A stretch of DNA of 39,443 nt. It comes from Candidatus Omnitrophota bacterium. GTDB taxonomy: Bacteria > Omnitrophota > Gorgyraeia > Zapsychrales > JAHFFX01. The DNA lies in NCBI GenBank assembly GCA_023247725.1, contig JAHFFW010000023.1:1-39443 (forward strand), read 5' to 3'. Shown here piece by piece: positions 1,199 through 10,960 of the stretch (position 1 is its first letter; each line of letters starts with the position of its first letter). The notes beneath the pieces are model-generated. The model was not told where the DNA came from and did not search any database. It saw nothing but the letters and a program-made list of their open reading frames with translations. Both the position numbers and the translations under genes were made by a program.

Positions 1199-2140
1199 AT
1201 GGAAAAGTTTGGCCAACGAAAGGACGCCGTTGACATCGTCTTCCAGCGGACAATGCTGGTTTTTCCTTTGTTGGTTTTGCTCATTGTCGGTGGGATCTTC
1301 GTTCAACTCCTTCTCTCGTCCTGGATCTCCATCAAAGAATTCGGTCCCGCGTTTTTGGTTACTTCCACTTGGGATCCGGTCGCAGAAAAATTTGGGGCGT
1401 TGCCCTTTATTTTCGGGACCATTGTCTCTTCATTGGTGGCGTTATTGCTGGCCGTTCCTATCGGTCTGGGTACGGCGATTTATCTGGCCGAATATGCGCC
1501 CCAGTGGCCGCGGCGCATCATTTCCTCGCTCGTTGATCTTTTGGCTGCGATTCCCAGCGTCATTTATGGGCTGTGGGGCATATTCGTCCTTGTTCCGGTT
1601 ATGCGAAGTCATGTCCAACCTTTTCTCGGAAAGTATCTTGGCTTTCTTCCTTTTTTTCAAGGCCCCGCCTATGGCATCGGCATGTTTTCTGCGAGTGTCA
1701 TTCTGGCGATCATGATCATTCCGTTTATCATTTCGATATCAAGAGAAGTGATTCTGGCTGTCCCGCACGTTTATAAGGAAGCCGCTTACGCCATGGGCGC
1801 GACGCGTTGGGAAGCGATCTGCACGATTATCCTGAGTTACGGAAAGGCCGGGATTTTGGGCGGAATCATTTTGGCCATGGGCCGAGCGATCGGTGAAACC
1901 ATGGCGGTGACCATGGCCATCGGCAACAACGTCAAGATTTCAGCCTCGTTATTTTCTCCGGCTTATACCTTGGCCAGCGTCATTGCCAATGAATTTGCCG
2001 AGGCCACGAGCAAACTCTATTTGGCCTCACTGACTCATATAGGATTGGTTCTATTCCTCGTTTCTATTGTCGTCAATATTTTGGCGTGGCTTCTTTTGTG
2101 GCGAATCAATGAACGGCAGAAAATCTTTCAAGGACGATGA
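1199..2140 (+). CDS. pstC: Phosphate ABC transporter permease PstC
   Basis: Inner-membrane permease subunit that pairs with PstA to form the phosphate channel. It has about six hydrophobic segments. The cytoplasmic EAA loop that docks on the ATPase is clear (EAAYAMGATRW, near residue 195), followed by the PstC-typical GRAIGETMAV. I prefer the ATG at 1199 (MEKFGQRKD), with GAGAAG 7 nt upstream. The longer reading from 1172 would start inside the hairpin loop at 1160-1186. Length is about 313 residues, normal for PstC. The 3' end overlaps the possible early starts of pstA. Family secure; start moderately sure. Confidence 0.94.
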   Translation: MEKFGQRKDAVDIVFQRTMLVFPLLVLLIVGGIFVQLLLSSWISIKEFGPAFLVTSTWDPVAEKFGALPFIFGTIVSSLVALLLAVPIGLGTAIYLAEYAPQWPRRIISSLVDLLAAIPSVIYGLWGIFVLVPVMRSHVQPFLGKYLGFLPFFQGPAYGIGMFSASVILAIMIIPFIISISREVILAVPHVYKEAAYAMGATRWEAICTIILSYGKAGILGGIILAMGRAIGETMAVTMAIGNNVKISASLFSPAYTLASVIANEFAEATSKLYLASLTHIGLVLFLVSIVVNILAWLLLWRINERQKIFQGR

Positions 2141-2153
2141 ATTCTCCTTTGAT

Positions 2154-3080
2154 ATGAATACCATGACAGGCATTTCCAGCGCTTGGAGCGAAACAAAAAT
2201 CAAAGAACGGGTCTTGACGCAGTTTAATCAAACCCGCGCCCGACGCAATATCATCAATGCCACCGCCGTCTATGGCTTGTCTTTTTGCGCGATACTCGTC
2301 TTATTTTGCCTGTTCAATATCATTTTCCATTTGTTGGTTCAGGGTTTCTCCTCCTTGAATCGCGATTTTTTCCTGCAATTACCCAAACCCGTTGGAGAAC
2401 CAGGAGGAGGGACGGCCAATGCCATTGTTGGAACTTTGATCTTGCTGATTGTAGCCGTATTGGTTGGGGTGCCAATCGGATTGGGTGCGGGGATTTATTT
2501 AAGTGAATATGCCCACCAGAGATTTGCGCAGGCCGTCCGCTTTACAACGGATGTCATGAATGGCATTCCCTCGATTGTCTTTGGAATTTTTGCCTGGACG
2601 ATCCTGGTCGTGCCTTTCAAAAGCTTTTCCGCGCTTTCTGGCGGGATTGCCTTGGGGATCATGATGATTCCGATGATTACCCGCACGACGGAGGGATTCG
2701 TAAGAATGGTTCCGGTTCCTCTCCGGGAAGCAGGATTGGCCATCGGCACACCCAAATGGCGTGTGATCAAAGACATTGTAGTCCCATCGTCGTTGGGAGG
2801 AATCGTGACCGGAATCATGGTGTCGTTAGCGAGAGTGGCGGGAGAGACCGCTCCGTTATTGTTTACGGCCTTTGGTAATCATTTTTGGCATTCGTCGCTT
2901 TTGGCGCCAATTGCGGCTTTGCCTTTGCAGATTTTTTCCTATGCGATATCTCCCTTTGAAGACTGGCACCGGCAGGCCTGGGCCGGGGCTCTGGTGCTCA
3001 TTCTGATCGTCTTTGTGATCAATCTTTGTTCCAGTTATTTTGTCGGCCGGCAGAGACGGATGTTTTCTTCCCACAAATAA
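2154..3080 (+). CDS. pstA: Phosphate ABC transporter permease PstA
   Basis: Second permease subunit of the first Pst system. Six membrane spans are apparent, and the EAA-type loop [11 protein letters not shown] is followed by [13 protein letters not shown], the PstA counterpart of GRAIGETMAV in PstC. The frame is open upstream into pstC. Possible ATG starts are 2109 (overlapping pstC by 32 nt), 2154 and 2163, none with a good ribosome site. I chose 2154 because it lies just after the pstC stop and gives a 308-residue protein with a short charged N-terminus before the first span. Function secure, start uncertain. Confidence 0.93.
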
Positions 3081-3085
3081 CGGTG

Positions 3086-3976
3086 ATGAACCTGAATGAT
3101 CAAACAATTGGAAACGACATTCTTCCAGGAGATATCCGGCCTCATATCAATACGGAACTTCAAAATGGTAAGCCGCTTTTTGTCTCTCACCGTAAACCAT
3201 TGGAGGAATCTTTGGAGAACCCGATCCCGCAGATTATGGTGAAGGAATTAAATTTTTATTATGGCCGACAAAAGGCATTGAGCAAGGTGTCGCTGGGAAT
3301 TCCCGCTAAAAAGGCCACGGCCTTGATTGGCCCGTCGGGCTGTGGCAAATCGACCTTGTTACGAACCTTCAGCCGCATGAATGATTTGATCGCCAATGCA
3401 CGGATCGAGGGCACGGTTACGATCGACGGCCGCAACATCTATGACCGTGACACCGATGTGGTCGAATTACGACGAAGAGTGGGCATGGTTTTCCAGAAAT
3501 CGACGCCCTTCCCAAAATCCATTTATGACAACGTGGCTTATGGTTTGCGGATTGTGGGAATCCGCGATAAGAAAACGTTGGACCAGATCGTTGAAAAAAG
3601 CCTCCGGCAAGCGGTCCTTTGGGAGGAGGTCAAGGATAACTTGGGCAAATCAGCCCTGGCCTTGTCGGGCGGACAGCAGCAGCGGTTGTGCATTGCCCGC
3701 GCGCTGGCGGTTGGACCGGAAATCTTACTCATGGACGAGCCTTGTTCTGCGCTTGACCCGAATGCCACGGCCCGAATTGAGGAATTGATTTTCGAACTGA
3801 AAGACGACTATACCGTCGTCATTGTGACTCATAACATGCAACAGGCTGTCCGCGTTTCGGATTTCACCGCTTTTTTATATCTGGGAGAATTGATTGAATT
3901 TGGCAGCACGCAAAAAATCTTCACAGTTCCCAAAGACAGGCGCACCGAAGCCTATCTCACGGGAAAATTTGGATAA
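3086..3976 (+). CDS. pstB: Phosphate ABC transporter ATPase PstB (canonical copy)
   Basis: ATPase that powers Pst phosphate import, working as a homodimer in the known family. All catalytic motifs are intact: Walker [10 protein letters not shown] (about 82-90), Q-loop VFQKSTPFP, signature [16 protein letters not shown], Walker B LLMDEP, D-loop SALD and switch His in VTHNMQQA. From the ATG at 3086, five bases after the pstA stop, the protein has 297 residues. That is about 40 more than E. coli PstB, the excess being an unconserved N-terminal extension; an internal ATG at 3236 would give standard length. It is the intact reference for the two degenerate pstB genes at 8760-10273. Confidence 0.95.
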
Positions 3977-4072: not shown

Positions 4073-4774
4073 ATGCCTAAGACCAAAATCCTCGTCGTCG
4101 AGGACGAGAAGGAAATTAGCGAGCTTCTCCAATACAACCTTGAGAAGGAAGGTTATCAGGTTGTTCAAGCCTACGACGGTCAGACCGCTTTAAAAAAGGC
4201 CGAACAGGAAAATCCCCATTTGATTGTCCTTGATCTTATGCTTCCAGAGATCGACGGCTTGGAACTTTGCAGATACCTCAAGCAAGCGGAGAAGACCCGA
4301 CGCATTCCCATCATTATGTTGACCGCCAAAAGCGAGGAAGCGGATGTCATCGTGGGTCTAAAACTGGGAGCGGATGATTATGTGACCAAGCCGTTCAGCC
4401 CCAAAATCCTTTTGGAACGGATCAAAACGGTTCTGCGAAGGATCGCGGAGAAGTCTTCCGCGGGTAAGATGAGGACTTTAAGCGGCCTGACGATTGATAC
4501 CGTCAAATACAAGGTGATTTATGGTGGAAAAGAAATCGTCTTGACCAATATTGAATTCTCTATCCTCGAATTCCTCTCCCGCCATCCTGGACGGGTTTAC
4601 TCGCGTGATCAAATCATGGACGGAGCCTGGAAAGAAGGAAAATTCATCGTTGACCGCGCGGTTGATGTCCATGTGCTGGCGTTGCGCAAAAAGTTAGGGA
4701 AGGCGGCTCACCTCATCGAAACGGTCCGCGGTATCGGTTACCGTTTCCACGATGTTGAATCCTCCGATGCATAA
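4073..4774 (+). CDS. phoB: Phosphate regulon response regulator PhoB (OmpR family)
   Basis: DNA-binding response regulator of 233 residues that would activate Pho genes when phosphorylated by PhoR. The receiver domain (about 1-120) has acidic residues at VVEDE, the phospho-acceptor Asp54 in VLDLMLPEIDG, and Lys106 in VTKPF. The C-terminal winged helix (about 135-230) has the OmpR/PhoB signature RVYSRDQIMDGAW, then VDVHVLALRKKLG and IETVRGIGYRF. It lies between two Pst systems and overlaps phoR, so the assignment as PhoB rather than another OmpR regulator is well supported by context. A Pho-box-like array lies at 6058-6107. Confidence 0.93.
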   Translation: MPKTKILVVEDEKEISELLQYNLEKEGYQVVQAYDGQTALKKAEQENPHLIVLDLMLPEIDGLELCRYLKQAEKTRRIPIIMLTAKSEEADVIVGLKLGADDYVTKPFSPKILLERIKTVLRRIAEKSSAGKMRTLSGLTIDTVKYKVIYGGKEIVLTNIEFSILEFLSRHPGRVYSRDQIMDGAWKEGKFIVDRAVDVHVLALRKKLGKAAHLIETVRGIGYRFHDVESSDA

Positions 4775-6050
4775 GATCCTCAATAAAATCTTTCTGGTCC
4801 ATTTCGGAATGATGGGGGCTGTTGTATTATTGGTAGGGCTGGGGTTTTCCCTTTCTAGTTTTCAATTGGCACAGCTGATGCTCGCCGGCCTTTTGGTTTC
4901 GCTGGTTTTTAACCGAATTTTCCGCAGAATTTTTTTAAAACCGATCCTGGAGATGCAAACGGCCGCCCGTCAGGTTGTGGAAAAAGAATTGGAAAGTAAA
5001 ATCACCGAAGTCAATCGGGACAAGATTGAATTGCAGGCGATTCTTTCGAGTATGGTGGAAGGAGTGATTGTCATTGGGCAGGATGAGAAGATCCTCATGA
5101 TGAACGCTCCCATCGATCGCATGTTCGACCTGCGGACCTTCGATGCCGTGGGCAAACCTTATTGGGAGGTCATCCGCCATGACACGATCAATTCCGCTTT
5201 GAAAGAATCCCTGGAGGAGAAGAAAACTCTTAAAAAGGAGATATCGCTCATTTCACCGACGGATAGCCATTTCCTGATGCAGATTTCGCCCGTCATCCTT
5301 TCCAACGGCCGCTTGACTGGTGTGGTGGCGGTATTCCATAACATCACGGAGCTCAAAAAACTTTCTCAGATGCGTTCGGAATTTGTCGCCAATGTCTCCC
5401 ACGAATTAAAAACGCCTTTGACGACGATCAAGGGTTTTGTGGAAACGCTCAAGGATGGGGCCATTCATGATCGGCAAAAAGCCGAACGGTTTCTTGAGAT
5501 CATCAAAAATCATACAGACCGCCTTGAACATTTGGTCAATGACCTGTTGACCCTGGCTTCCATCGAATCCCGGGAAAAACCTTTGAAAATGGAAGAGGTT
5601 CAGATTCCTTGCGTGATCGAAACGATCCTGCAATTATTGAAAGATCAAATCGAACATCAGGGCCTTCGTTGCGAAGTCGATATCAAGGCGAACTTGCCAA
5701 AAATTCAAGGGGATGCCATATCGCTTGAGCAACTTTTCCTGAATTTATTGGATAATGCCATCAAATACACGCCGACCGGAGGTTTGATCAAAATCACCTC
5801 TCGACCAGAGAACGGCTTTATTCGGACCGATGTTGAAGATACCGGCATGGGTATCGAGGCCGAGTCTCTGCCTAGGATCTTTGAACGATTCTATCGTGTG
5901 GACAAGGCCCGTTCCCGAGAGATGGGAGGAACGGGATTGGGACTCGCCATCGTCAAGCACATTGTCCAGATTCATGGAGGTCACATGAACGTTGTGAGCC
6001 AGCCTGGAAAAGGTTCGACGTTTTCCGTATATCTGCCGATCAACTCATAG
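4752..6050 (+). CDS. phoR: Phosphate regulon sensor histidine kinase PhoR
   Basis: Membrane histidine kinase and partner of PhoB. Two hydrophobic segments (about 13-33 and 38-60) have almost no loop between them, so there is no real periplasmic sensor. That fits PhoR, which takes its signal from the Pst complex and PhoU. A PAS-like domain follows (about 90-200), then HisKA with His217 in FVANVSHELKTPL, and an ATPase domain with the N box NLLDNAIKYTP (about 331-341), DTGMGI (363-368) and GTGLGLAIV (393-401). The reading from 4752 overlaps phoB by 23 nt; ATG 4767 is an alternative. Neither has a clear ribosome site, suggesting translational coupling. Confidence 0.93.
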   Translation: MLNPPMHKILNKIFLVHFGMMGAVVLLVGLGFSLSSFQLAQLMLAGLLVSLVFNRIFRRIFLKPILEMQTAARQVVEKELESKITEVNRDKIELQAILSSMVEGVIVIGQDEKILMMNAPIDRMFDLRTFDAVGKPYWEVIRHDTINSALKESLEEKKTLKKEISLISPTDSHFLMQISPVILSNGRLTGVVAVFHNITELKKLSQMRSEFVANVSHELKTPLTTIKGFVETLKDGAIHDRQKAERFLEIIKNHTDRLEHLVNDLLTLASIESREKPLKMEEVQIPCVIETILQLLKDQIEHQGLRCEVDIKANLPKIQGDAISLEQLFLNLLDNAIKYTPTGGLIKITSRPENGFIRTDVEDTGMGIEAESLPRIFERFYRVDKARSREMGGTGLGLAIVKHIVQIHGGHMNVVSQPGKGSTFSVYLPINS

Positions 6051-6151: not shown

Positions 6152-7036
6152 ATGATAATCCCTCATCCTCATCGGTTCCTTATCTGTCTCTTGATGATGT
6201 TCGTGTCCTTATCTTCTTGTTCCAGACCGACGGAAAATAAAAAAGGAGTCGATGGGACTACCATCCAAATCAAAGGTTCCGACACCATGGTCAATTTAGG
6301 CCAGGCCTGGGCTGAGGAATTTATGCGCCTGCACCCGCAGGCCTTTGTCTCGGTGACCGGAGGAGGATCTGGTACGGGAATCGCGGCCCTGATTTCAAAA
6401 ACGTGTGACATTGCCGAATCGTCGCGAAAAATGAAAGACAAAGAATACGAGGAAGCCAAAGCCAATGGAGTTGAAGCTGTGGAATTTAGGGTCGCCATGG
6501 ATGGCTTGGCCGTCGTTGTCCATCCGCAGAATCCCATCAATCAGCTCACCCTTGACCAACTGGCCAATATTTTTATGGGAAAGATAAAGAATTGGAAAGA
6601 AGTGGGGGGGCCGAATCTCCCCATTGTGCTTTTGTCGCGGGAAGTCAATTCCGGAACACACGTCTATTTTAAAGAACAAGTCCTGAGGCGAGGTGACTCC
6701 AAGCGCAAAGAAGAGTTTGACGAAGGAGCCCTGCTCATGCCGTCCTCACAAGCGATTGCTGACGAAATTGCCCAAAACCCCAACGCCATTGGTTATTATG
6801 GAATGGGCTATTCGAATCCGACTCAAAAACTCCTGGCCATTGCCAAGGATGACAAGAGTCCCTATTACCTGCCGATGGTGGAGAATGTGATGAGCGGTCA
6901 TTATGACATTTCCCGGCCGCTGTTGATGTACACGAACGGTCAGCCTCAAGGGGACGTTAAGGAATTTGTGGATTTTGTTCTTAGCGACGCCGGCCAGGCC
7001 GTTGTGAGGCAAATCGATTTTGTGCCATTGCGTTAA
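6152..7036 (+). CDS. pstS: Second phosphate-binding protein, lipoprotein type (PstS2)
   Basis: Phosphate-binding protein of the second Pst operon, 294 residues, of the shorter PBP-like-2 type common in Gram-positives and many environmental bacteria. A hydrophobic N-terminus ends in the lipobox LSSC (about 20-23), so it should be a membrane-anchored lipoprotein, unlike the soluble PstS at 134-1144. Likely ligand-binding segments are IKGSDTMVNL, VTGGGSGTGIAAL, DIAESSRKM and SREVNSGTH. The start has no good ribosome site. It sits just downstream of the Pho-box-like array and 9 nt before pstC2. Confidence 0.92.
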   Translation: MIIPHPHRFLICLLMMFVSLSSCSRPTENKKGVDGTTIQIKGSDTMVNLGQAWAEEFMRLHPQAFVSVTGGGSGTGIAALISKTCDIAESSRKMKDKEYEEAKANGVEAVEFRVAMDGLAVVVHPQNPINQLTLDQLANIFMGKIKNWKEVGGPNLPIVLLSREVNSGTHVYFKEQVLRRGDSKRKEEFDEGALLMPSSQAIADEIAQNPNAIGYYGMGYSNPTQKLLAIAKDDKSPYYLPMVENVMSGHYDISRPLLMYTNGQPQGDVKEFVDFVLSDAGQAVVRQIDFVPLR

Positions 7037-7045
7037 ATCAAAGTC

Positions 7046-7918
7046 ATGTCCCTAAAAAATTTTAAAGAAGCCCTGATTGAGAAAATCATTTTTTTGAGCG
7101 GCATTGCCTCGATTATTCTCGTTATCCTTATTTTTATTTTCCTCGCTAAAGAAGGGCTTTCTCTATTTAAAAGCGTTCATCTCGGCGATTTTCTTTTGGG
7201 CCGACGCTGGCATCCCATTTCCGAACCACCGCAATTCGGCGTCTTGCCGCTCATTCTGGGATCGCTGTTTGTCACTCTAGGAGCGGCGGTTATTTCCGTG
7301 CCGATGGGAATTGCCAGTGCCATTTATATTGCAGAAGTGGCTCCACCTCGAATGAAGGAAATTTTAAAATCCGGCATCGAATTGTTGGCGGCAATTCCCA
7401 GCGTGGTTTTGGGATTCATTGGCATGACGACCCTCGTTCCTTTTGTTAAACATCATTTGAATTTGCCGACGGGACTCACGGCCTTTTCCGGTTCGGTCAT
7501 GCTCGCCTTTATGGCCATGCCCACCATTGTGAGCATTGCGGAAGATGCCTTAACTGCGGTTCCGCAAAAATATAAAGAAGCGGCGCTAGCCTTGGGCGCG
7601 ACGCGTTGGCAGGCGATCCACCGGGTCATTTTGAGGGCGGCCTCATCGGGCATTGTGGCCGCCGTTATGCTCGGGATCGGCCGAGTCGTCGGCGAAACCA
7701 TGGCGGTCATGATGATCACCGGTAATGCCGTCCGGATGCCCACCTCATTGTTTCAACCCGTTCGAACTCTAACCGCGACCATTGCCGCCGAAATGGGCGA
7801 GACCGTTCGCGGAAGCGCCCACTATCACGCCCTCTTCGCTATTGGCATTGTCCTTTTTGTCATTACCTTTGTGATCAACTTGATTGCGGATTGGGCAGTC
7901 CATAGGAAATTGAAATGA
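7046..7918 (+). CDS. pstC: Phosphate permease PstC, second system
   Basis: Permease subunit of the second Pst system, 290 residues with about six membrane spans. The EAA docking loop is EAALALGATRW, followed by IGRVVGETMAVMM, which marks it as PstC rather than PstA. It starts 9 nt after pstS2 and overlaps pstA2 by 4 bp (ATGA), so the genes are probably translationally coupled. Its docking loop should contact one of the two different ATPases encoded downstream. Confidence 0.94.
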   Translation: MSLKNFKEALIEKIIFLSGIASIILVILIFIFLAKEGLSLFKSVHLGDFLLGRRWHPISEPPQFGVLPLILGSLFVTLGAAVISVPMGIASAIYIAEVAPPRMKEILKSGIELLAAIPSVVLGFIGMTTLVPFVKHHLNLPTGLTAFSGSVMLAFMAMPTIVSIAEDALTAVPQKYKEAALALGATRWQAIHRVILRAASSGIVAAVMLGIGRVVGETMAVMMITGNAVRMPTSLFQPVRTLTATIAAEMGETVRGSAHYHALFAIGIVLFVITFVINLIADWAVHRKLK

Positions 7919-8766
7919 AATACAATTCTTATCGCAGCGAAAAGATTGCATTCACGATTTTGTTTGCGGCAACCTTCTTGGTGGTATTGCCGGTCATTTT
8001 CATCATCCTCATGATCATTCAAAAAGGTTACAGCGTTATCTCCTGGGAATTTTTATTCACCATGCCGGCCAAAGGCATGCGTGAGGGAGGCATCTGGCCT
8101 GCCATCGTCGGAACTCTGTACCTGGTTTTGGGAACACTCATCTTCGCCCTGCCTTTAGGCGTTTTGTCAGCTATCTTCTTGACAGAGTATGCGAAAAATA
8201 ATGCCTTGACCCGGCTGGTCAAGTTGGCCATTATCAATCTGGCCGGAGTGCCTTCGGTGGTCTACGGATTATTTGGGTTAGGAATTTTTGTTATGTTTTT
8301 AAAATTCGGGGCTTCGATCCTGGCCGGTTCCCTCACCTTGGCCATCATGGTTTTGCCCATTATCATTACGACGACCAAAGAAGCTTTGGAAAGCGTGCCT
8401 CAGTCATTTCGAGAGGTGAGTCTTTCCCTGGGCACCAGCAAATGGGAGACCATCCGTTTTTCTGTCCTTCCGTATGCCTTGCCGGGAATCTTAACAGGAG
8501 TCATCTTGGCCGTGAGCCGGGCAGCCGGAGAAACCGCGCCCATCCTTTTTACCGTCGCGGCATTCTATCTGCCGAAATTGCCAGAATCAGTTTTCAATCA
8601 GGTCATGGCCTTGCCGTATCATCTGTATGTGCTTTCGACCCAAGTCCCCAATGTGGATATTAGGCTTCGTTATGGCACGGCGTTGGTTTTACTCATGCTT
8701 GTTCTCAGCTTGAATTTAATGGCTATTGTGGTTCGGGCCAAGTTTCGGAAAAAGAAAAAATGGTAG
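7915..8766 (+). CDS. pstA: Phosphate permease PstA, second system
   Basis: Permease subunit of 283 residues with six apparent spans and the PstA-type AVSRAAGETAPILF. The docking loop reads REVSLSLGTSKW, so the EAA triplet is EVS here, compared with EAG in the first-system PstA. It overlaps pstC2 by 4 bp and pstB2 by 7 bp. PstC and PstA already form an asymmetric pair, so a heterodimeric ATPase could be matched to them one to one. Confidence 0.94.
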   Translation: MKYNSYRSEKIAFTILFAATFLVVLPVIFIILMIIQKGYSVISWEFLFTMPAKGMREGGIWPAIVGTLYLVLGTLIFALPLGVLSAIFLTEYAKNNALTRLVKLAIINLAGVPSVVYGLFGLGIFVMFLKFGASILAGSLTLAIMVLPIIITTTKEALESVPQSFREVSLSLGTSKWETIRFSVLPYALPGILTGVILAVSRAAGETAPILFTVAAFYLPKLPESVFNQVMALPYHLYVLSTQVPNVDIRLRYGTALVLLMLVLSLNLMAIVVRAKFRKKKKW

Positions 8767-9521
8767 AAGGTCAAATAAAAATTGCGGCGAACAATCTGGA
8801 GATTTGGTTCGGCCAAATCCATGCGCTTAAATCATTATCCATCGCTATCCACGAAAAGGAAATCCTTGGCGTGATCGGTCCAGCCAATAGCGGAAAAAGC
8901 ACGTTTCTGCGGTCTCTCAATCGTTTTAACGACTTGGATCCTCATTTTCGATTTCAAGGTTCGCTCCGTTTAGGTGGGAAAAATATTTATAAGGATATTC
9001 CAGTTGGAGAATTGCGTAAACGGGTCGGAATGGTTTTTGCCTTACCGGTGCCTTTGCCTCTGAGCATTTTTGAGAATGTGGTGTATGGCCCGCGGCGCCA
9101 CGGCATCAAACAAAAGTCTGTTTTGGAAGGAATCGTCGAGAAAACCTTGCAAGAGGCTTATCTGTGGGAAGAGGTCAAAGATCGTCTGCATATTTCGGCA
9201 ATGAAATTGTCCGGCGGTCAACAGCAGCGACTCTGCCTGGCCCGGACGCTTGCGGTCGAACCGGAAGTTATTTTGTATGACGAGCCATGCTCCGGACTTG
9301 ATCCGATTTCCACCGCCAAAATCGAAGAGGCCATGCGGCGATTCCGAAAGCGATATACGCAGGTTTTGGTCACCAATAACACCAAACAAGCGGCGAGGGT
9401 CAGTGATCGCACCGCCTTTTTTTTGATGGGAGAGATGGTGGAGCTCGATCAAACCGGTAGGATCTTCACCTTTCCAAAGGATCAAAGAACCAATGATTAT
9501 ATTTCCGGGAGATTTGGATGA
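8760..9521 (+). CDS. PstB-like ATPase with lost Q-loop Gln and switch His (PstB2)
   Basis: PstB-family ABC ATPase, 253 residues, normal PstB length. Kept motifs are Walker A GPANSGKST (40-48, GxxxxGKST intact), signature LSGGQ (150-154) and Walker B LYDEP with catalytic Glu175. Lost are the Q-loop glutamine (VFALP where PstB has VFQxP; Ala94, codon GCC at 9039) and the switch histidine (VTNNT where PstB has VTHNM; Asn206, codon AAT at 9375). The D-loop is SGLD instead of SALD. The frame is open and overlaps both neighbours, so this is not decay by frameshift. It probably pairs with the next gene to supply the good signature motif. Confidence 0.9.
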   Translation: MVEGQIKIAANNLEIWFGQIHALKSLSIAIHEKEILGVIGPANSGKSTFLRSLNRFNDLDPHFRFQGSLRLGGKNIYKDIPVGELRKRVGMVFALPVPLPLSIFENVVYGPRRHGIKQKSVLEGIVEKTLQEAYLWEEVKDRLHISAMKLSGGQQQRLCLARTLAVEPEVILYDEPCSGLDPISTAKIEEAMRRFRKRYTQVLVTNNTKQAARVSDRTAFFLMGEMVELDQTGRIFTFPKDQRTNDYISGRFG

Positions 9522-10273
9522 AGGGTATTATCGAGACTCAGGATTTGAATTTGTTTTACGGAGAATTCCAGGCGCTTAAAAATATCAATCTGGCCGTACG
9601 TCGAAAGACCATTACAGCCTTTATCGGTCCGTCCGGCTGCGGCAAGTCGACGCTGTTGCGTTCGTTCAACCGGATGAATGATTTGATTGAAGGCGTCCGG
9701 ATGACGGGTCGGGTTTTGATTGATGGCAACGATATTCAAAACAGCCATACCGATCTGGTCACCTTGCGTAAAAAAGTCGGAATGGTTTTTCAACGTCCCA
9801 ACCCGTTTCCTTTATCGATCGCCGAAAATATTTTGTTTGGCCCCCAGATTCACCGCACCGCAAAAAAGGACGAGTACGAGCAAATAGTGGAAGAAAGCCT
9901 CAAATCAGTGTTATTATGGGATACCCTTAAAGATAAACTCGACCGCAATGCGCTCAATCTTTCCCTGGAGCAACAGCAGCGTCTATGCATTGCCCGGCTT
10001 TTGCCGGTCAAACCTGAGGTCCTGCTTATGGATGAACCCTGTTCCGCGCTTGACCCGGTTGCCACGGAACGGATCGAAGATTTGATGCGGGTTCTTAAAG
10101 AAAATTATACGATCGTCATTGTGACTCATAACATGCAGCAGGCCGCGAGGGTGTCGGATGATACAGGTTTCATGCTATTGGGAGAATTGATTGAATTTCA
10201 TCGAACCGAAATGATTTTTACCAATCCTGTGGACCAGAGAACGAGTGATTACATCACCGGTCGATTTGGATAA
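9518..10273 (+). CDS. PstB-like ATPase with degenerate signature motif (PstB3)
   Basis: PstB-family ATPase, 251 residues, overlapping the previous gene by ATGA. The catalytic side is complete: Walker [10 protein letters not shown] (37-45), Q-loop VFQRPNPFP with Gln92, Walker B LLMDEP with Glu173, D-loop SALD, and His204 in VTHNMQQAA. The signature motif is [13 protein letters not shown] where PstB has LSGGQ (Leu150-Glu151, codons CTG GAG at 9965-9970). A homodimer would have two poor signatures. With the upstream PstB2 it would form one consensus and one degenerate ATP site. Flanked by pstB2 and phoU. Confidence 0.9.
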   Translation: MKGIIETQDLNLFYGEFQALKNINLAVRRKTITAFIGPSGCGKSTLLRSFNRMNDLIEGVRMTGRVLIDGNDIQNSHTDLVTLRKKVGMVFQRPNPFPLSIAENILFGPQIHRTAKKDEYEQIVEESLKSVLLWDTLKDKLDRNALNLSLEQQQRLCIARLLPVKPEVLLMDEPCSALDPVATERIEDLMRVLKENYTIVIVTHNMQQAARVSDDTGFMLLGELIEFHRTEMIFTNPVDQRTSDYITGRFG

Positions 10274-10300: not shown

Positions 10301-10960
10301 ATGCAGCGACACTTCGATGAAGCTCTGCAAAAACTAAAGGAAAAGATTTTTCGCATGAGCGGATTAGTTGAGGAGAACATCGGGGCCTCAATTAAGGCGT
10401 TGATCGATCGTAACTCAGAGCTTGCTTATAAGGTCATCAAATCCGATGATGCGGTTAATATGCTGGAAATCGAGATTGATGACTGGTGCATGAAGCTCCT
10501 GGCTCTTTATCAGCCGGCCGCCGGGGACCTGCGCTTTATCACCTCGACCATGCGAATCACCAACGACCTTGAGCGCATTGGCGACCTAGGCGTCAACATC
10601 GCCGAAAGAACACTGGATTTGATTAAGGTGCCGCCTTTGAATCTCAAAATTGATATTCCCAAAATGGCCGCGGCCTCCCAGAGCATGCTCAAAGATAGCC
10701 TCAATGCCTTCGTCAATAAAGATTCCAAACTCGCCTACGAGGTCTGCAAACGGGATGACGAGGTCGATCAGCTTAACCACGATATCTTTATGGCGCTTTT
10801 CACCTGCAAACCGGAGGAGCAAAAACCGGTTGAAAGAGTGATTGATCTTATCCTCGTTGCCAAAAATCTGGAACGGATTGCGGATCATTCCACGAATATT
10901 TGCGAAGATGTCATTTATCTGGTGGATGGAAAAGTGATCAAACATCATATTACAGATTAA
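10301..10960 (+). CDS. phoU: Phosphate signalling protein PhoU
   Basis: Cytoplasmic regulator that links Pst activity to PhoR and limits phosphate uptake. The 219 residues form the usual duplicated three-helix repeat. Each half has the metal-binding E/DxxxD-type motif: TNDLERIGDLGVNIAER in the first and AKNLERIADHSTNICED in the second. A strong GGGGGAG ribosome site precedes the ATG. Its place at the end of pstS2C2A2B2B3 is the classical position for phoU, and only one copy serves both Pst systems in this window. Confidence 0.96.
   Translation: MQRHFDEALQKLKEKIFRMSGLVEENIGASIKALIDRNSELAYKVIKSDDAVNMLEIEIDDWCMKLLALYQPAAGDLRFITSTMRITNDLERIGDLGVNIAERTLDLIKVPPLNLKIDIPKMAAASQSMLKDSLNAFVNKDSKLAYEVCKRDDEVDQLNHDIFMALFTCKPEEQKPVERVIDLILVAKNLERIADHSTNICEDVIYLVDGKVIKHHITD

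Follow-up and report, generated by a model that had tools for sequence, protein, structure and literature searches.

A 39,443-nucleotide stretch of DNA from a Candidatus Omnitrophota bacterium (the window; part of contig C16 in a draft genome of 2.19 Mb and 52 contigs) carries two adjacent genes for PstB, the ATPase of the phosphate importer Pst, whose products have lost complementary parts of the ATP-site machinery. We refer to them as alpha (PstB2, 253 amino acids, 8760..9521, + strand) and beta (PstB3, 251 amino acids, 9518..10273, + strand). The same split was found in 132 of 134 distinct tandem PstB pairs. Since no PstB other than alpha and beta was found in 36 of the 55 pair-bearing genomes sampled from the window's phylum, the simplest reading is a heterodimer. 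Judged from sequence, alpha and beta very probably serve together in one phosphate importer, in which one ATP site would be competent and the other degenerate. These counts support the proposal of an earlier note on this DNA, which had read the complementary split as an asymmetric pair.

The motif assignments of the earlier note were verified base by base. Alpha keeps the Walker A motif (GPANSGKST, 8877-8903), the signature LSGGQ (9207..9221, + strand) and the Walker B Asp-Glu (9279-9284). In its Q-loop, GMVFALPVPLP, an Ala (GCC, 9039..9041, + strand) replaces Gln, and in its switch region, VTNN, an Asn (AAT, 9375..9377, + strand) replaces His. Beta keeps the Walker A motif (9626-9652), the Q-loop Gln (CAA, 9791-9793), the Walker B Asp-Glu (10031-10036) and the switch His (CAT, 10127..10129, + strand), and its signature is degenerate, LSLEQ (9959..9973, + strand) standing for LSGGQ. 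In the window, as in the 132 pairs, the catalytic face of one nucleotide-binding domain (NBD) and the signature of the other are defective. An ATP-binding cassette (ABC) dimer builds each ATP site from Walker A, Walker B, Q-loop and switch His of one subunit and the signature of its partner. Because the signature serves the partner's ATP, alpha and beta would together give one complete and one degenerate site.

Both proteins belong with PstB by family and by predicted fold. TIGR00972 (PstB) was by far the best family for alpha, yet the score of 334.5 bits lay slightly under the cut-off of 343.2, and alpha is classed here not as an equivalog but as a diverged clade of PstB paralogues; beta exceeded the cut-off with 376.6 bits. 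In annotation, the best family model for alpha and beta alike is simply PstB. The two open reading frames overlap via ATGA. AlphaFold2 monomer models (mean predicted local distance difference test scores of 94.0 for alpha and 93.0 for beta) both matched E. coli PstB best, in the PstSCAB cryo-electron microscopy entries PDB 9k3s and 9k3x, with template modelling scores of 0.91-0.94. The solved E. coli entries each contain two copies of one PstB chain.

Conservation of the split among tandem pairs

Genome contigs were scanned with alpha as the seed, and the best 80 of 294 loci were kept, 69 with alpha and 11 with canonical PstB only. Judged by the alpha protein, the closest named relatives of the window's genome among these loci were Omnitrophota metagenome-assembled genomes. 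Wider samples comprised 145 genomes of the window's phylum, 149 of the phylum of an Acidobacteria record and 199 of the phylum of a Planctomycetes record. Phyla are given by record titles for the 80-locus scan and were inferred from the centre genome for the wider samples, whose counts are counts among the matches listed, the first pass having scored 13-18 candidates per genome. All 55 further alpha loci and 20 canonical-match regions were fetched from the 145-genome sample, together with 15 regions from the 149-genome sample and 20 + 2 from the 199-genome sample, mostly with high beta-profile scores. Identical proteins were collapsed, and the resulting 349 distinct PstB proteins were sorted by tandem position first and by motif second, so that the count is independent of motif-defined labels. 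The alpha, beta and canonical labels of earlier tallies were motif-defined, and the finding there that all canonical proteins were intact is circular.

Among the 134 distinct tandem pairs, 132 carried the same split, one was cut by a contig end in its beta gene (L043), and one was intact in all motifs of both genes (L241, 4889-6504, from the Planctomycetota sample); none was partly or otherwise split. The intact tandem at L241 shows that the split is not an inevitable outcome of tandem duplication. Taken by position, 133 of 134 upstream members lacked Gln and His and had GGQ, the other being intact. Full-length downstream members had Gln and His and lacked GGQ in 132 of 133 cases, again with one intact; one more was cut. 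Whether tandem pairs in relatives keep the split had been set beforehand as a test by the earlier note. They do, and random motif loss was not seen.

PstB proteins outside tandems were intact in 76 of 81 cases. The other five were L004 and L246, which with LSIGQ form a class separate from beta, L251 (LSLEE, beta-like), and L070 and L085 (alpha-like), the alpha-like gene of L085 lying 230 bases from a contig end. The neighbour of L251 scored under the profile threshold; by eye, in L261, it is consistent with the split, and it was left out of the counts. That locus (L261, 1521-3393, minus strand) holds a very divergent pair, in which alpha has the signature LSGGQ but Pro in place of the Q-loop Gln and Asn in place of His, and beta has LSLEE; PhoU-like frames, read by eye, flank the operon on both sides. 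Among the 349 proteins, loss of Gln was always accompanied by loss of His and vice versa, and no protein lacked all three motifs.

In the 132 split pairs, alpha had Ala (129) or Ser (3) for Gln and Asn for His (132), and it kept SGGQ, the Walker A Lys and Asp-Glu in all. Beta retained Gln, His, the Walker A Lys and Asp-Glu in every pair. Its signature change is specific: an acidic residue, Glu or Asp, replaces the Gly of the fourth position, where we counted Glu in 120, Asp in 11 and Tyr in one (acidic in 131). The third position was Leu in 106, Gly in 11, Pro in seven, Ala in five, and Ile, Met or Asn in one each. Across all pairs, the P-loop of alpha mostly reads GP[AS][NG]SGK[TS], as against GPSGCGK[ST], and the choice of N or G seems, by eye, to go with the beta signature type by clade.

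Both other genomes of the window's family have the alpha-beta pair with the same split. Because these two genomes and the 132 pairs agree, chance or a sequencing error in the window is ruled out. Record titles in the 80-locus scan included Omnitrophota, WOR-1/Saganbacteria, Firestonebacteria, Desantisbacteria, Elusimicrobia, Aminicenantes, Acidobacteria, Planctomycetes, Verrucomicrobia and Ignavibacteria/Bacteroidetes, among others. In the window's phylum, alpha was present in 56 of 145 genomes (lowest score 410.7 bits, next match 374.1), and beta adjoined it in 55 of these, the 56th being cut by a contig end. By a hand count among the matches listed, 36 of the 55 pair-bearing genomes had no third PstB at E<=1e-80, with the proviso that drafts may lack genes; 19 had at least one further PstB match. 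The Acidobacteria-record sample yielded at least 11 tandem pairs, 11 of 11 split alike with weak scorers included, and two of them had Ser for Gln. The 20 regions of the Planctomycetes-record sample held eight alpha-beta pairs (two already counted), one divergent pair, and L241. In 100 genomes from the class of a Sporomusaceae record, chosen to serve as a tandem control, no adjacent PstB matches were found.

A maximum-likelihood tree of 158 proteins (quick search, no bootstrap; Shimodaira-Hasegawa-like approximate likelihood ratio test supports) placed alpha in one clade of 70 rows with support 99, and beta in one clade of 67 rows with support 95, L004 being left outside. Each clade stood apart from the canonical PstB proteins (20 rows, support 86). 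The simplest account would be a single origin of alpha and a single origin of beta; the tree does not fix the root or the sister relations. Codon-aligned comparisons gave median ratios of nonsynonymous to synonymous substitution rates (dN/dS) of 0.11 for alpha (52 comparisons) and 0.15 for beta (56 comparisons). Both proteins are under purifying selection, and the low median of alpha indicates that it is not decaying.

A proposed asymmetric phosphate importer and its alternatives

The genes beside the pair are those of a Pst importer. In the window, genes for the phosphate-binding protein PstS2 (6152..7036, + strand; TIGR02136, 279 bits, above the cut-off of 206.6) and the permeases PstC2 (7046..7918, + strand; TIGR02138, 306 bits, above cut-off) and PstA2 (7915..8766, + strand; TIGR00974, 300 bits, above cut-off) adjoin the ATPase genes. 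PhoU (10301..10960, + strand; TIGR02135, 218 bits, above cut-off) lies downstream and is the sole TIGR02135 match in the draft genome. The order PstS-PstC-PstA-alpha-beta, usually then PhoU, is general: among 126 pairs examined, PstS-PstC-PstA lay upstream in 97 of 97 with room, and PhoU adjoined the pair downstream in 96 of 107 with room. Of the 11 others, eight had no recognised PhoU, and three had an opposite-strand PhoU, a response regulator or PstS. A PhoU-beta fusion, suggested by gene order in L097, L227 and L228, was rejected, as no single frame matched both. In the 36 genomes with no other PstB among the matches listed, the pair is likely to be the motor of Pst function.

We propose that PstS2-PstC2-PstA2-alpha-beta forms a single importer with two different ATPase subunits, and infer that alpha and beta pair head to tail. 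The competent site would consist of Walker A, Q-loop, Walker B and switch His of beta and LSGGQ of alpha. The degenerate site would consist of Walker A and B of alpha, without Q-loop Gln or switch His, opposite LSxEQ of beta. The Lys and Asp-Glu kept in 132 of 132 pairs suggest that this site probably still binds nucleotide, and it would hydrolyse little; with an acidic residue in its signature, the site should close less firmly round the gamma-phosphate. The PstC-PstA permease is itself a heterodimer, so that the pair could be mounted in one orientation. At a guess, a single hydrolysis per cycle would supply most of the drive for transport, and the asymmetric motor would be read by PhoU/PhoR.

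Four other explanations were weighed. That the operon carries another oxyanion rather than phosphate would make sense in this genome, which also has a complete canonical pst operon, but we think it improbable: PstS2, PstC2, PstA2, beta and PhoU all exceed the cut-offs of Pst families, and the 36 genomes, again among the matches listed, would be left with no other Pst ATPase set. Slightly less probable still is that alpha and beta homodimerise, or that each pairs with the canonical PstB1 encoded in the first pst operon, the split having no joint meaning. Partners for mixing exist here, in PstB1 and a fourth PstB-like protein on another contig of the same genome, and in the 19 genomes with a further PstB match, but not among the matches listed in the other 36. 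Either homodimer would be defective twice, because alpha-alpha lacks Gln and His at both sites and beta-beta lacks a normal signature, and the exact complementarity of 132 of 134 pairs would be left unexplained.

We give an equally small chance to the idea that alpha is a regulatory decoy, for example a platform for PhoU or PhoR, and that beta alone drives transport. Alpha does lack two catalytic residues, PhoU is usually found 3' of the pair, and E. coli PstB mutants can separate signalling from transport: neither the signature mutant Q160K nor the Walker B mutant E179Q carries out transport, yet the former signals phosphate plenty and the latter starvation (PMC5775613). A decoy, however, would have no reason to keep a signature that serves only the partner's ATP, and alpha keeps SGGQ, the Walker A Lys and Asp-Glu in 132 pairs, while beta alone would have LSxEQ at both sites. 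Relaxed selection after duplication with accidental complementarity fits the score of alpha slightly under the PstB cut-off, but can practically be dismissed, since records from several phyla show loss of these same residues and since the dN/dS of alpha and the lack of any partly split pair reject random decay, which the earlier note had expected would rarely give opposite defects.

In type I importers the permease inserts its coupling helix into the cleft of the NBD, beside the Q-loop. Residue 2 of the EAA motif of PstA was Val or Ile in 97 of 111 asymmetric operons versus none of 46 canonical ones, where it was Ala or Gly in all 46; after clustering at 70% identity the figures were 21 of 25 versus 0 of 23. 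This position ranked fourth of 285 columns by divergence. The equivalent position of PstC ranked 116 of 288, with Gly or Ala in 111 of 111 asymmetric and 45 of 46 canonical operons. The window fits the pattern, with EVS in PstA2 and EAA in PstC2. The altered coupling helix of PstA2 is REVSLSLGTSKW; its stretch EVSLSLGTSKW (8413..8445, + strand) has Val (8416-8418) where canonical PstA has Ala or Gly. PstC2 has a canonical-type helix, KEAALALGATRW, whose E codon is at 7577. As alpha carries the changed Q-loop and the PstA helix is altered, there are hints, to be taken as a lead only, that alpha may sit on PstA and beta on PstC.

Several points weigh against the heterodimer or against this orientation. 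L070 (3370-4122) encodes a PstB of the alpha type, having Ala for Gln and Asn for His, that adjoins no beta, and no beta-profile match was found elsewhere in its genome at E<=1e-40. Sites that look degenerate can still hydrolyse. Alpha and beta distances correlate (r 0.72 over 125 pairs; highest of 200 shuffles 0.10), but such a correlation is expected of any co-inherited operon and is no proof of contact. The PstA helix change is absent from some of the 111 operons, 13 having Ala and one Ser, and three other PstA columns are more divergent than the helix position. PstC differs strongly just past its own helix (positions +14 and +15, ranks 7 and 16 of 288). Within the asymmetric set, no letter-by-letter link was found between the PstA helix and the alpha Q-loop.

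The signalling of Q160K and E179Q without transport makes the NBD state a candidate input to the Pho pathway, and our guess is that an asymmetric motor may set its own Pho threshold. A more ambitious picture is possible, though we hold it to be rather doubtful: an ancient second Pst lineage spread over several phyla, with a fixed motor of alpha on PstA and beta on PstC that would spend one ATP per phosphate, and a degenerate alpha site that would hold ATP as an energy or occupancy gauge read by PhoU.

Relation to known transporters

The window's second operon shares its operon logic and its permease pair with E. coli PstSCAB-PhoU, and E. coli PstB is 55% identical to beta and 46% to alpha. Unlike the window's operon, the E. 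coli system has a single PstB with intact Walker A, Q-loop, LSGGQ and switch His, and the coupling helix of its PstA is REAAYALG. Adjacent pstB genes in one pst locus are known from Firmicutes (Enterococcus faecalis pstB1-pstB2, Bacillus subtilis PstBA/PstBB) and from Nostoc punctiforme (pstB2-pstB3), which are alike by gene arrangement. The tandem PstBs of E. faecalis have non-equivalent roles (PMC12096839) and B. subtilis PstBA/PstBB were modelled as a mixed pair (PMC11466899). Both E. faecalis proteins are described in the text available as having canonical motifs identical to those of E. coli and S. pneumoniae PstB, with no split, and the term 'Q-loop' does not occur in that text (PMC12096839). 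A tandem of that type, canonical in both genes, was met once in our survey, at L241, and the window's pair is not of it.

TM287/288 is a heterodimeric ABC exporter with a degenerate site, and the fold of such exporters differs from that of importers. TAP1/2, CFTR and Pdr5 resemble the alpha-beta pair in having one half with a defective catalytic face and another with a defective signature, and the degenerate signature of Pdr5, LNVEQ, has the same Gly-to-Glu change as the LSLEQ of beta (PMC7756269). By the same account, what asymmetric exporters lose second most often is the Walker B Glu, in many cases together with the switch His, whereas alpha keeps the Glu and loses the Q-loop Gln (PMC7756269). 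Importers with one ATP site called degenerate also appear in PMC11466899, namely RbsA and NupO of B. subtilis. Unlike the pair described here, these are fused single polypeptides of type II importers, not Pst, whose second Walker A lacks Lys (PMC11466899).

No published report of this PstB split was found in the literature searched, which lacks most subscription papers and yielded none on the E. coli PstSCAB structures. Tandem pstB is itself already known; what appears to be new is the joining of a Pst importer to an asymmetric ATPase pair of the exporter kind. Textbooks present Pst as the high-affinity phosphate importer, and it also forms the sensor arm of the Pho response; in its solved example the two PstB copies are identical. 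If one site is competent and the other degenerate throughout a widespread lineage, that lineage would be a natural experiment on how many ATPs are needed per substrate and on which NBD state is read by PhoU and PhoR. With two ATP sites split over two genes, each could be mutated alone, whereas any mutation in a single pstB hits both.

Locus setting

The window contains two pst operons, the canonical one first, then PhoB-like and PhoR-like genes, and then the second, which extends through 10960. The separate, canonical operon encodes PstS1 (134-1144), PstC1 (1172-2140), PstA1 (2067-3080) and the canonical PstB1 (3026-3976; TIGR00972, 394.7 bits, cut-off 343.2), whose motifs are intact. The PstB1 frame starts about 69 codons 5' of the PstB domain match and overlaps pstA1, and an internal start may be used. 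Between the operons lie a PhoB-like response regulator (4073..4774, + strand; TIGR02154 PhoB, 263 bits, under the cut-off of 296.2) and a PhoR/PnpS-like sensor kinase (4752..6050, + strand; NF046044 PnpS, 415 bits, above the cut-off of 400). A third Pst-like operon of the same genome is present on contig C39 (45049-46056; L262, 4550-5557, minus strand), with a binding protein, two permeases and an ATPase, and that contig has no PhoU match. Its ATPase retains Gln and His, bears the signature LSIGQ, as the PstB of L246 also does, and is extended at the C terminus.

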